From a virus: a stretch of 64,000 nucleotides of DNA. The stretch spans positions 248,001 to 312,000 of the IMG/VR virus record IMGVR_UViG_3300032157_000001. One strand, written 5' to 3'. Position numbers and translations under genes: made by a program. A model generated the notes under the pieces. That model was not told the origin of the DNA. It worked only from the letters and a program-made list of their open reading frames with translations, and searched no databases. This document shows, piece by piece, positions 7,012 through 63,108 of the stretch (position 1 is its first letter; each line of letters opens with the position of its first letter).

Positions 7012-7420
7012 GGTAAAAAAAAAGAGACCAGCGTCCTTTCGGGTACACTGATCTCTATAACCCCTCGCACATGTGCTATCGGCACAGTGGTGGTCATGTG
7101 GGGTTTGTTTTGTCAATGAAGCCATATTTATCCGGGCGCTTCATCGGGAGCCATCCCATACCGTAACTGGAATTACGATGTTGCCCGTTTACCCAAGTAT
7201 TCCAGTACTGGTTATCGGGACTTGTTCACCACGGCTTGGCTTTCTTAAAACACCGATGGGATTGGCTACCCACATTATATTCTCCTTTAGAGGGAGATGC
7301 TTATTAAGCTACAGTGCTAAGGTGTGAGCGGGGTTGTCACCCGCTTTTACTACACTAAACGTGCAGCAAGTTTTAACATCCTCTCTAAACTATCTCCACA
7401 CCTTACCGTGACTACTATTG
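7012..7420 (-). ncRNA. Candidate ~400-nt structured RNA with promoter and intrinsic terminator
   Basis: Leftward transcript beginning at an AAC-N17-CGT promoter and ending at a textbook terminator (AGAGA-CAG/CTG-TCTCT stem with a GAAA-containing loop, then nine T). Long-range and local helices: AAGGTGTG/CACACCTT (7319-7326 with 7397-7404), AGCGGG/CCCGCT (7327-7345), TCTCC/GGAGA near 7281-7297, AACCCC/GGGGTT enclosing CACATG/CATGTG (7059-7105). A CCAGTACTGG sits at 7202. No ORF is convincing on this strand. It lacks tmRNA and RNase P consensus elements. Class unknown. Confidence 0.6.
7015..7056 (-). terminator. Intrinsic terminator of the 7012-7420 RNA
   Basis: On the minus strand an interrupted stem (AGAGA, CAG / CTG, TCTCT) is followed immediately by nine T residues. 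Confidence 0.8.
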
Positions 7421-51206: not shown

Positions 51207-52069
51207 TATTCGAATATATTATATACTGACACAAAAGATTCGTCCAGCATTGCGTGATCCTTTGGAATGTATTCATCCTTTCTGCTGTTTGTTGTGAACA
51301 ATCTTTCAAAATATTGAGATAGTTCGGTGAATCCATTGCTGAATATTCCGTGAGAAACTGCAAGGTAAAGTTTACCCACATTTCGCTCTTTCAATTTTTT
51401 TGCAAGTTCAACAAATGTTCTTCCGCCAATACATATGTCGTCAACGATAAGAACATCTTTACCTTCAAAATCTTGTTTTGAAAGTTCAATTGAGTCGATG
51501 TTGCCGCTTGAGATGGAGCGTGATTTATTTGCAGATGCTACCTCACCTTTGAATTTTATCTTGTCGGCGAGTTTATAAATCTTTTTGTATGCACCAGCAT
51601 CTGGTGATAAGAGCACAACGTTTTCGGGGAGAGATAACATAACACTACTGATATAGCTGCTGTTGTCAACGACTCTGCAGTTCTTGAGTAGTCCCGGACT
51701 CACTTCTGAGTGTGGATCATAAAGTGTATATCTATCAACGGGAAGTGCATTAAAAATATTGGTGATCGTTTTCAAACTGAAACATTCCCCCGTACTGAAG
51801 TCACGGTCAGCTTGCATGTAGGGCATGTATGGAATGAAAACATTTATTTTACGATCAGGCCAGTCCTTCTTTAATGTATCGACTGTCAACACTAACAACA
51901 TAATGTCGTCAGAACTGTTTAATCTTGTGATGATATAAAAATCATCATACTCATAATCTTTGGAACTGAAATCAATTTTGAATTTGATGTGGATTTCTCC
52001 ACCGGGAAATTTAAATGCTTTGTACTGGTCGTTATCGGTAATGCCGTTAGTAAGTTTGATCGTGAGCAT
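51206..52069 (-). CDS. prs: Ribose-phosphate pyrophosphokinase (Prs family)
   Basis: 287 aa, slightly shorter than bacterial Prs. Seen: FKFPGGEIHIKF at the N-terminus, YMPYMQADRDFSTGE (ATP-binding flexible-loop region), LYDPHSEVSPG (the D-P-H-S motif) and the PRPP-binding loop VLIVDDICIGGRTF. Prs makes PRPP from ribose 5-phosphate and ATP; the phage NARP1 homologue (Adps) pyrophosphorylates ADP-ribose instead. Operon with nadV. Confidence 0.9.
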   Translation of the reverse strand: MLTIKLTNGITDNDQYKAFKFPGGEIHIKFKIDFSSKDYEYDDFYIITRLNSSDDIMLLVLTVDTLKKDWPDRKINVFIPYMPYMQADRDFSTGECFSLKTITNIFNALPVDRYTLYDPHSEVSPGLLKNCRVVDNSSYISSVMLSLPENVVLLSPDAGAYKKIYKLADKIKFKGEVASANKSRSISSGNIDSIELSKQDFEGKDVLIVDDICIGGRTFVELAKKLKERNVGKLYLAVSHGIFSNGFTELSQYFERLFTTNSRKDEYIPKDHAMLDESFVSVYNIFE

Positions 52070-52297: not shown

Positions 52298-52367
52298 GTC
52301 TCAAATTTAATGTTTTCCTTGGTATAAACAAACTATTGTCTTATTTTTGAGAACAATTTTTAGCATT

Positions 52368-53267
52368 ATGAAAGACGAGATTGGCGACAGAATGAAAGAC
52401 TTCTACGAAGATAGAACCAGAGTCTATCTGCCACGTAGAACTTACACTATTATAAGGATAGACGGGAAGGCATTTCACACGTATACGAAAGGCTTGCCAC
52501 GCCCGTTTGATGAAGCCTTAATTCAGGATATGAACAAAACTGCCGAATACCTCTGTAAAATGATACAAGGGGCCAAACTGGCGTATGTCCAATCTGACGA
52601 AATATCGATAATTGTGACCGATTTTGATAATCTCACGACCTCTGCATGGTTTGATGGAAACATCCAAAAGATGACATCTATTTCGGCCAGTATGGCTACC
52701 GCCATATTCAACCAGTTAAGAACCGAGAGATTGTTAACGTCTTCTTGGAAGAGCTATGTCTATGGAAGAGGTCAGGATGATGAACCGTTTTTTTTAAAAT
52801 GGGATTTTAGTGTGACATTGGAAGAGGTTAGGTTGGCACACTTCGACTCTAGGGTCTTCTCAATTCCTTCTCGTGAAGAAGTGTTGAATTATCTGATATG
52901 GAGACAACAAGATGCTACCAGAAATTCCATTTCCTCCGTTGCACAATCTTTATACTCACACCAACAACTGGAAGGTGTGACGACCGGAGACATGCAGGAA
53001 CTTATATTCCAAAAAGGTAAGAACTGGAATGACTATCCTATTGGTCAAAAGAGAGGACGAATTGTGTTGAAAAATTATGTGCTCAAGGAGTCCACTAAAG
53101 AAAGGTATGATCAATCTACCGATAAAGACGGATGGGTCGTAAGAGAAGGTGAGAAAGGTTTATCCTATTGGGTAACCCGCAGCGTTTGGACTGCTATCGA
53201 TCCTCCAATTTTTACTCAGGAGAAAAATTTTCTTAGAGAGATTATTCCAGCATTAGATAGCGAATGA
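52368..53267 (+). CDS. Thg1-like protein (3'-5' polymerase family), 299 aa
   Basis: Start at MKDEIGDRMKDFYEDRTRVY. Motifs: IIRIDGKAFHTYTKG (first catalytic Asp), YVQSDEISIIVTDF (second), ISASMATAIFNQL, HFDSRVFSIPSREEV and WRQQDATRNSISSVAQSL. Thg1 adds G-1 to tRNA-His; bacterial and phage Thg1-like proteins extend truncated tRNA 5' ends in the 3'-5' direction. The T-R-N-S segment replaces the H-I-N-N-L-Y-N of true Thg1, favouring the Thg1-like type. The only rightward gene between 46.2 and 64 kb, so separately transcribed. Confidence 0.88.
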   Translation: MKDEIGDRMKDFYEDRTRVYLPRRTYTIIRIDGKAFHTYTKGLPRPFDEALIQDMNKTAEYLCKMIQGAKLAYVQSDEISIIVTDFDNLTTSAWFDGNIQKMTSISASMATAIFNQLRTERLLTSSWKSYVYGRGQDDEPFFLKWDFSVTLEEVRLAHFDSRVFSIPSREEVLNYLIWRQQDATRNSISSVAQSLYSHQQLEGVTTGDMQELIFQKGKNWNDYPIGQKRGRIVLKNYVLKESTKERYDQSTDKDGWVVREGEKGLSYWVTRSVWTAIDPPIFTQEKNFLREIIPALDSE

Positions 53268-57276: not shown

Positions 57277-57735
57277 TTATGCTAATTTAAACTTAGGTAA
57301 GAATGATCTCAAAAAGAGGTTGTGTTTTCCACCAACCATTTTTTCAAACTCCGTGGGTTCTGTTGGTTTTACAACCATATCAATAAATGTTTGAAAAGTT
57401 ACTTCGGGGTCTGGATATTTTTTGCGATCCCAAACTCTTTCATCGACAAGAAAACACATTGACGTTATAATGTTGTCCAAATCTGGTTCATGAAATACTT
57501 GGAAAGTCATTTGGTTTATCGCCAATTCGTGAAGAGCTTCCTTCATTTGAATTGATCCCCCCGGAGTCAGGATGATTGTCGTTTCATCATTGTTGATCCA
57601 AGCTTTACAGTTCGGATTGTCGCCGTAGTTTTTTTGATACCTTGATATTGCATGCTGTGCTTGAATTCCTTTTTGGATTCCGGAAAGCTGGTAGAGCACC
57701 AGAGCATACATTTTGTAGTGTAATTGTTCTTCCAT
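57277..57735 (-). CDS. PTH2-fold (peptidyl-tRNA hydrolase-like) protein, 152 aa
   Basis: MYALVLYQLSGIQKGIQAQH matches the first strand and K-G-x-x-x-x-Q-x-x-H region of PTH2; KAWINNDETTIILTPGGSIQ, HELAINQMTFQVFHEPDLDN and ITSMCFLVDERVWD follow the fold. The C-terminal G-P...I-T-G end is replaced by an extension. A diverged member, catalysis uncertain. Directly downstream of the RNase P RNA candidate on the same strand. Confidence 0.7.
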   Translation of the reverse strand: MEEQLHYKMYALVLYQLSGIQKGIQAQHAISRYQKNYGDNPNCKAWINNDETTIILTPGGSIQMKEALHELAINQMTFQVFHEPDLDNIITSMCFLVDERVWDRKKYPDPEVTFQTFIDMVVKPTEPTEFEKMVGGKHNLFLRSFLPKFKLA

Positions 57736-57746
57736 ATTTAAGAAGA

Positions 57747-57958
57747 TTGTGAAATAAAGTGAGCGTACCCCGAATTCTGTTTTATTGTGTCATTTATCTG
57801 TCTGCTGCTACCTCGTTATACTGTGGGTATTGGTCAACCCGGATAACTGTTTTGCATTGCATCGTTCGTGGTGATAACGACCGAGGTCTCCCACAAGCCA
57901 ATAGTGATGTTCAAGGTTCCTCTCCGTGGAGCGACACATCCTCTATTTTATTTCACAA
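57747..57958 (-). ncRNA. rnpB: Compact RNase P RNA candidate
   Basis: Leftward, about 212 nt. Perfect 12-bp closing helix TTGTGAAATAAA/TTTATTTCACAA (P1). CR-I-like GAGGAACCTTGAA (57922-57910). CR-IV AGATAAATGAC (57799-57789; bacterial consensus AGATGAATGAC), then 8 nt, then CR-V ACAGAA (57780-57775), the same spacing as in Escherichia coli. P4 forms between CCTTGAA and TTCGGGG. Further helices: GTGGG/CCCAC and ACCT..CGTTAT/ATAACGAGGT. About half the length of bacterial RNase P RNA, so much of the specificity domain must be reduced. It lies upstream of a PTH2-fold gene. Confidence 0.72.
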
Positions 57959-58360
57959 CCCACAAATTTTAATTAGTATAAGCAAATATACAAAAAAACA
58001 GACAAGAATTTTTATACAAAACAATAATTCTGGTATATAATATGATCTTCCAACAATTCGTTCATAAATTATGTTGAAAATTAGAAGACTTGTGTGGTGT
58101 ATCCAAAACCCCGCAAAAAATCCTCCAAAAAACCACAAGTAATAAATATACGATCTAATTAATAATCTAAAAAGACCATACTGCTTGAATATCAATATGC
58201 TTAGTTGATTTTTTCTCTCTGCAGATGTTTCCGGCAATATTGATTCCCGCTCTTTCATAGCCATATTGTAACTGTAGTCAAAATTAAATATGACATACAA
58301 TATCTCTATCAGTATCACCACTAAAAGAGAAGTATACCCTACGTTGAATGCTGTATGCAT
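57953..58360 (-). CDS. Membrane protein, 135 aa
   Basis: Three or four hydrophobic helices (TSLLVVILIEILYVIF; YIYYLWFFGGFFAGFW; LLFCIKILVCFFVYLLILIK). Overlaps the upstream gene by 22 nt and its 3' end by a few bases with the RNase P RNA candidate. Function unknown. Confidence 0.7.
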   Translation of the reverse strand: MHTAFNVGYTSLLVVILIEILYVIFNFDYSYNMAMKERESILPETSAERKNQLSILIFKQYGLFRLLIRSYIYYLWFFGGFFAGFWIHHTSLLIFNIIYERIVGRSYYIPELLFCIKILVCFFVYLLILIKICGL

Positions 58361-62763: not shown

Positions 62764-63108
62764 TCATACTGTTTGTGGTTTTAATTTCTTTTCTCTTAGA
62801 GCTAAAGGATAGCTGCTCAACATTTTTCTGATCTCAGGAGTACCGTAAACGCATAGTGCGGTCATCTGATCATCAATGTCAGGTTCTCTAAAGGAAATAA
62901 GATGCGGTGTTAATTTTTCTAACCTTGTGTAAAGGTCGAGCAAGGACTGCTCATCTTTTGCTGCTAACGTAATTACCGAGTTTGATTCGGATTTCCATTG
63001 CCTGAATACCTCATTGTGATGGTAGGCAAATTCTAATGCAGCGTGTTTGGTTTGTGCTACTTGGTAGCCGGGAGTGATGTCTTGTCTCGTTACTGTGACG
63101 AGCTTCAC
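62764..63108 (-). CDS. PTH2-fold (peptidyl-tRNA hydrolase-like) protein, 114 aa
   Basis: LVTVTRQDITPGYQVAQTKH, then SNSVITLAAKDEQSLLDLYT, ISFREPDIDDQMTALCVYG: the strand-helix order and the Q-x-x-H pair of PTH2, with E-P-D-I-D-D as in 57277 (E-P-D-L-D-N). The Lys of K-G-x-x-x-x-Q is missing (T-P-G-Y), so classical catalysis is doubtful. Short version of the fold. Confidence 0.68.
   Translation of the reverse strand: MKLVTVTRQDITPGYQVAQTKHAALEFAYHHNEVFRQWKSESNSVITLAAKDEQSLLDLYTRLEKLTPHLISFREPDIDDQMTALCVYGTPEIRKMLSSYPLALREKKLKPQTV

Follow-up and report, generated by a model that had tools for sequence, protein, structure and literature searches.

Two ribozymes are nearly universal; RNase P is one of them, and cells were regarded as its only suppliers. 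The closest described systems are the bacterial type A RNAs (RF00010, E. coli rnpB), the type T/P RNAs of Pyrobaculum (Lai et al. 2010, cited in PMC4919922) and the reduced RNAs of CPR bacteria (PMC8172020). In bacteria, the GGU of L15 pairs with the 3' RCCA of the tRNA (PMC4919922), and the minimal RNase P RNA has hitherto been approached by dissecting the E. coli RNA (PMC5839562). We found no description of a phage or viral RNase P RNA in the open-access literature searched (5.39 million papers; subscription papers and preprints lay outside the search) or in annotations. RNase P is unmentioned in the jumbo-phage reviews, the huge-phage survey and the paper on Stenotrophomonas phage vB_SmaS-DLP_6 (DLP6); the reviews and the survey list tRNAs, synthetases and repair enzymes.

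The window, that is the whole stretch of 64,000 nucleotides analysed here, comprises bases 248,001-312,000 of a 371,504-base IMG/VR virus record. On its minus strand, a 135-aa ORF and a PTH2-like ORF flank an element that an earlier note, made from the sequence alone, had proposed to be an RNase P RNA encoded by a phage. When a covariance model was derived from 19 viral or environmental loci other than the window, using nested helices only (P4 and P6 were excluded), it matched this element at 104.8 bits (E = 4.6e-26, 64 kb searched). With the same model, the runner-up in the 64 kb reached only E = 9.8. Standard searches gave a different picture. An Rfam 15 search of the window returned zero families, either at the gathering cut-off or at E ≤ 5, and RF00010 had zero matches in the window or in the entire virus record. 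The folding energy of the RNA was ordinary (z = -0.85, minimum-free-energy folding), a test that is uninformative here because pseudoknots cannot be folded by that method. Thus, neither Rfam nor folding energy alone would have backed the RNase P reading. A blastn search of the element against phages gave spurious matches of 37 nt only, which were discarded. The model match, together with the covariation and the conserved catalytic residues described below, shows that the element is an RNase P RNA by homology; that it is catalytic is inferred. The features of the locus are collected in the table.

Table. Features of the RNase P RNA locus and of the phage RnpA genes. Positions are those of the window unless a locus is named.
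Feature	Position	Strand	Remarks
Phage-encoded reduced RNase P RNA	57744..57961	-	~218 nt, P1 to P1
Covariance-model match span	57763-57946	-	outer ends added from P1
P1 5' strand GGGUUGUGAAAUAAA	57947..57961	-	pairs with 57758-57744; 13 Watson-Crick + 2 G-U
P1 3' strand UUUAUUUCACAAUCU	57744..57758	-	partner of P1 5' strand
P2 5' strand UGUGUC	57933..57938	-	pairs with GACACA 57791-57786; 98-99% of family cells paired
P3 hairpin CUC-CACG-GAG	57922..57931	-	97% of family cells paired
CR-I GAGGAA (E. coli 61-66)	57917..57922	-	near-invariant, 50 aligned sequences
P4 5' strand ACCUUGAA	57910..57917	-	8 bp with UUCGGGGU at 57774-57767
P5 5' strand CAUC	57906..57909	-	pairs with GAUG 57863-57860; 98.5% of family cells paired, 4/4 pairs covary
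P6 pseudoknot 5' strand UAUUGG, in J5/7	57898..57903	-	pairs with CCAAUA 57833-57828, P17 loop
P7 (UGUGG/CCACG) and short P8-like hairpin	57867..57895	-	sole remnant of specificity domain
J5/15 GCAA (E. coli G246-C247-A248-A249)	57857..57860	-	both A's in 50/50 sequences
P15 (UGC/GCA) around P16 (GUUAU/AUAAC) and P17 (GGGU/ACCC)	57806..57856	-	alignment pairing
L15 GGU (G292-U294 equivalent)	57810..57812	-	47/50 sequences
CR-IV AGAUAAAUGA	57790..57799	-	near-invariant, 50 aligned sequences
CR-V ACAGAA	57775..57780	-	near-invariant, 50 aligned sequences
Upstream ORF, 135 aa	57953..58360	-	no family
Downstream ORF, 152 aa, PTH2-like	57277..57735	-	PHROG 3668 'hydrolase'
Pfam-level PTH2	62764-63108		Pfam
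Thg1-like tRNA 3'-5' polymerase	52347..53267	+	PF04446, 94.8 bits; context only
Phage RnpA, LR756502.1	L200 332-1803, near 525 kb		Pfam + NCBIfam
Phage RnpA, LR745206.1	L201 1465-1812, near 76.6 kb		Pfam + NCBIfam

We compared the RNA with the bacterial type A RNA, verifying E. coli residue numbering on MG1655 rnpB. The two have in common P1-P5, a P6 formed between J5/7 and the P17 loop, P15-P17, a U at the position of U69, A248/A249, GGU 292-294, and CR-IV and CR-V at an identical 8-nt spacing; CR-I, CR-IV and CR-V occur in the window in canonical order. These features show, directly in the sequence, that the catalytic domain is type-A-like. The combination of P6 with a P16/P17 arm, a hallmark of bacterial type A, is present both in the window and in the family. 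The RNAs differ in that the phage family has a P3 of 3 bp and mostly lacks P18, and the window escapes detection by RF00010. The largest difference lies between the P5 strands, a segment of ~42 nt in the window versus ~160-164 nt in E. coli: these ~42 nt stand in place of P8-P14 and the CR-II/CR-III core. CR-II/CR-III and the P7-P14 specificity domain are not present, P7 and a short hairpin alone surviving. P1 consists of TTGTGAAATAAA/TTTATTTCACAA, 12 Watson-Crick pairs that extend to 15 pairs with G-U. As a control, the P1 5' strand was paired with the 3' flanks of other members; these 38 pairings reached at most 10 Watson-Crick pairs versus 13 in the window, and the 15-bp P1 of the window outdid all 38 swapped controls.

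Pyrobaculum type T/P and the phage RNA are alike in being ~200 nt, with the catalytic domain kept and the specificity domain largely gone. However, the Pyrobaculum RNA is archaeal and works with archaeal proteins. The Rfam library, which should include the archaeal type T family, gave no match to the window at E ≤ 5. With their P6 and GGU, the phage RNAs are built like bacterial type A, and we therefore regard the likeness as convergent. The CPR RNAs share with the phage RNAs a reduced form and scores below standard thresholds, but they are cellular and lose helices such as P12-P14 or P18, not the entire specificity domain; some CPR RNAs are without the L15 motif (PMC8172020), whereas the phage family retains GGU.

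Most specifics of the earlier note held. Its P1, CR-I-like GAGGAACCTTGAA, CR-IV AGATAAATGAC, ACAGAA and P4 are all present on the minus strand, the 8-nt distance from CR-IV to CR-V is the same in E. coli rnpB, and its statement that the specificity domain was largely lost is borne out by the surviving P7 and short hairpin. The RNase P RNA identity stands on much stronger grounds than before (model E-value, covariation and catalytic residues), and the claim that it is phage-encoded is supported by its place on a 371.5-kb virus record with a terminase match. The size was revised from ~212 nt at 57747-57958 to ~218 nt at 57961-57744, and P2, P3, P5, the P6 pseudoknot, P7, P15-P17 and the L15 GGU had been overlooked. 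The note had also proposed an Infernal search with RNaseP models; run with the Rfam models, this gave no match. These models are blind to the family, and the check as worded therefore yields a false negative. A lack of P4/P1 covariation in relatives, which it said would refute the reading, was not observed for P4, and the element proved not to be a single case but one of ~57 related loci.

Covariation indicates that the fold is under selection. In a 20-sequence alignment, 93.4% of cells were paired and 33 of the 44 base pairs changed on both sides in a compensatory manner; sliding one strand by 1-3 columns lowered pairing to 32-47%, and shuffles gave 68%. In a 50-sequence alignment made with a sister model, the nested helices were 95.0% paired and 28/31 nested pairs covaried. 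The two pseudoknot helices both lie outside the model, yet P4 was paired in 98.2% of cells with 7/8 pairs covarying, P6 in 89.1% with 5/5 covarying (12/13 for the two together). The column equivalent to U69 is U in all phage-type members, the lone exception, L178, being a misaligned bacterial RNA. The median identity of the members to the window is 55%. The P6 of the window itself forms six perfect pairs, yet its sequence is unlike that of its relatives' P6.

The window departs from the family in P4. Its 5' strand is 1 nt shorter than the family's, and its most stable pairing, an 8-bp helix of -6.6 kcal/mol versus -1.2 kcal/mol for the bulged form, has no bulge where U69 would lie. The U69 column nevertheless holds a U in the window too, despite the bulge-less pairing. 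An exact search for a sister genome in which P4 could be compared returned none. As this is a single metagenomic copy, an assembly error, a tolerated change, and an altered or lost activity are each possible. Without the universal bulge, and in the absence of activity or expression data, the activity of the window copy is uncertain; catalysis is here an inference.

We asked who carries this RNA. An initial scan of viral sequences by CR-IV/CR-V alone gave largely coding sequence and was abandoned. Two degenerate DNA patterns drawn from conserved blocks, run against 2.9 million viral contigs, gave about 30 to 40 loci with the same block order and similar length. A third pattern, drawn from the core and independent of these two, recovered 22 loci, and the 7 among them not previously scored all reached 82-133 bits with the model. 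In total, ~57 related loci were collected, mostly on phage contigs and often within tRNA arrays. An independent recovery set was obtained by picking records solely by IMPDH protein similarity and then searching the whole record for the RNA. It was found in LR756502 (642 kb, E 5e-31), LR745206 (635 kb, E 6e-30), LR756500 (462 kb, E 2e-17) and G003 (321 kb, E 1e-38), and in LR756508 (484 kb, E 7e-20), which was searched subsequently. A direct synteny between the RNA and IMPDH was discarded, as the RNA of the relatives sits elsewhere in the genome. A blastn lead added LR756503/LR756501 (735 kb) and the cultured phage DLP6; the carriers thus include phages of 462-735 kb. In DLP6, the RNA (86 bits; KU682439.2 105,778-106,009, to which P1 adds the ends) occupies the gap between the CDS AAY80_165 and the tRNA-Arg AAY80_166, in a 12-kb stretch with 29 tRNAs (ARAGORN). 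As a separate observation, ARAGORN predicts a tmRNA in DLP6 (L190 2836-3179) that is unannotated in its record.

The family is not found in all large phages: a model search gave no credible match in Lak-A1, Lak-B9, XacN1, RAS14, Atu_ph04 or phage G. Weak matches in LR756504 (19.6 bits) and Bacillus phage G (17.5 bits) were rejected, being without the 5' half and in surroundings that look coding, as was a blastn match in Agrobacterium phage Atu_ph04. The two weak matches set a noise ceiling of ~20 bits, and the score of E. coli rnpB (17.7 bits) was therefore not counted. Run against cellular genomes (84,980 species of bacteria and archaea), the second pattern matched just four times: in a canonical WOR-3 rnpB, in two short metagenome-bin contigs and in one Achromobacter contig. 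The last, a 487-kb contig of Achromobacter anxifer (L179 1460-8000), carries more than 30 tRNAs in less than 7 kb, along with an RNase P RNA of reduced form (89 bits); it is probably a phage or phage-like element inside an isolate genome. Host contamination as the source of the family is unlikely given these four cellular matches only, a terminase-family match in 17 of the 23 carrier records tested (the window's own record included), and the fact that the LR records are published huge-phage genomes.

Members of the family and their fuller relatives form a size series. At one end, L172 is a complete type A RNA on a viral contig (RF00010, 255 bits), specificity domain included. L146 and L150 are intermediate, scoring 118 and 146 bits with RF00010 and 43 and 39 bits with the phage model; their recognition by both models ties the phage family to bacterial RNase P. 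These three fuller RNAs likewise lie between or near tRNAs, on viral contigs of 191-340 kb; the RNA of the window falls among the strongly reduced forms. L029, L034 and L035 have a P18-like hairpin, and AT-rich insertions interrupt the stem replacing the specificity domain in L170, L173 and L175. In L171 (807-1042, minus strand), the replacement stem contains a degenerate tRNA-like insert with a T-arm GTAAAGTTCGAATCTTTAC, in which ARAGORN finds no tRNA. At the other end, P7/P8 are gone entirely from L223 (7661-7806), L226 (9791-9939) and L227 (1548-1703), RNAs of ~156 nt with P1. In these three, the P5 loop GUUGAG appears to make P6 with CUCAAC of the P15 arm. L227 measures 156 nt from P1 to P1, and a tRNA-Gln starts 5 nt after P1; in all three, as in L129 and L144, only a few nucleotides separate the RNA from tRNA genes. 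The series from L172 through L146 and L150 to the window (~218 nt) and L227 (~156 nt) is a natural one that bears on the minimal RNA need of a bacterial-type RNase P.

A bacterial-type RNase P RNA works with RnpA, and we looked for this protein in carriers. Two of the 23 carriers tested, LR756502 and LR745206, have an RnpA that passes the cut-offs of both Pfam and the NCBIfam equivalog and bears the motif KRAVDRNR-KRLMRE; a protein weakly matching CCA-adding enzymes lies beside the RnpA of LR756502. No RnpA was detected in the window's own virus record, for which host RnpA must therefore be assumed. Host RnpA is the probable partner in most carrier phages, and in at least two a fully viral RNase P could form.

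Potential substrates are abundant. The earlier note had suggested looking for phage tRNAs elsewhere in the genome, and ~47-49 are present: 49 above the Rfam cut-off, mostly at 312-349 kb of the record, and 47 by ARAGORN, in three regions. The RNA gene is separated from the main tRNA cluster by 6.6 kb or more. CCA is encoded in just 4/46 of these tRNAs, so that use of the GGU would need CCA to be added before cleavage. Two side observations concern the tRNAs themselves. Two of them have a CUA anticodon (G000 315,769-315,840 and 190,087-190,159) and are amber-suppressor-like, making TAG recoding possible; and a tRNA-like match at 7248-7318 of the window (minus strand; RF00005, 37.6 bits) is not reported by ARAGORN.

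Immediately around the RNA, the ATG of the downstream ORF begins 8 nt below the final P1 base. This is the gene that the earlier note called PTH2-fold; it has no Pfam match, and its PHROG annotation is 'hydrolase'. The stop codon of the upstream ORF (57955-57953) falls within the P1 5' strand, and the RNA is therefore probably not a stand-alone transcript. The Thg1-like gene named in the note was confirmed, and in L143 and L149 the distance between a Thg1 homologue and the RNase P RNA is ~0.3-1.2 kb. A specific partnership was rejected: Thg1 is equally present in the jumbo phages Lak, XacN1, RAS14 and phage G, which are without a credible RNA.

The explanation that we favor, and consider likely, is that the locus is a phage RNase P RNA gene that has kept the type A catalytic domain, has nearly lost the specificity domain, and matures phage tRNAs. 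The sequences show homology, fold, the presence of catalytic and tRNA-3'-end-binding residues, the spread in tRNA-rich large phages and the co-location with tRNA arrays in relatives, whereas transcription, protein binding and cleavage rest on inference. In an infected cell, the RNA would be excised from a longer transcript and join RnpA, which would come from the host in most phages and from the phage itself in LR756502 and LR745206. The complex would then remove the 5' leaders of the phage's many tRNAs. In relatives with tRNAs only a few nucleotides away, processing these neighbours would also create the RNA's own end. Loss of the specificity domain may have exchanged affinity for a compact gene, with recognition perhaps achieved via the acceptor stem and the protein. 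Such a private enzyme would allow phage tRNA maturation to continue if host RNase P were saturated, decayed or blocked.

Unlikely among the alternatives is a decoy or inhibitor that binds host RnpA or pre-tRNA and restrains host RNase P without cutting. In its favor, P2, P3 and CR-IV/CR-V, the part that carries RnpA, are kept while the substrate-binding domain is lost, and the P4 of the window is altered. However, the U69 position, A248 and the GGU would be unnecessary for a decoy yet are near-invariant, pairing in P4, the helix that binds metal, is strongly constrained, and two phages supply their own RnpA. Moreover, in relatives the RNA sits in tRNA arrays, where blocked tRNA maturation would harm the phage. 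Also unlikely is that the RNA is a relic, a captured host rnpB in decay, with the bulge-less P4 of the window as a sign of lost function. The strong divergence and the difference of the window P4 from the family speak for it, but compensatory changes in nearly all nested and pseudoknot pairs point to selection, not decay, and the window retains every other helix, including a perfectly paired P6 of unlike sequence; for the copy in the window alone, a relic cannot be excluded. That the RNA matures other phage RNAs (mRNA, tmRNA-like or small RNAs) instead of tRNAs is very unlikely: 4.5S, tmRNA and some mRNAs are further substrates of bacterial RNase P (PMC4919922) and the gene in the window's phage lies outside the tRNA cluster, but in many relatives it is in or near tRNA arrays, and the L15 GGU, specific for tRNA 3' ends, is retained.

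Taking the phage RNase P reading further, we think it probable that these loci represent a viral lineage of their own, composed of RNase P ribozymes that consist of the catalytic domain only and start at ~156 nt, which would provide large tRNA-rich phages with their own tRNA 5' maturation and would sometimes be complete with a phage RnpA; catalysis remains inferred. If this is true, they are the smallest of all natural RNase P RNAs of bacterial type, no RNase P ribozyme was known from viruses before them, and phages with dozens of tRNAs could mature these tRNAs without depending on the host. Rfam currently misses the family, and the cultured DLP6 makes it open to experiment. Elsewhere in the window (48999-52069, minus strand), a nicotinamide phosphoribosyltransferase gene (PHROG 448) adjoins a ribose-phosphate pyrophosphokinase-like gene. 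Such a pair resembles the phage NAD+ reconstitution pathway, and we note it as a lead only.
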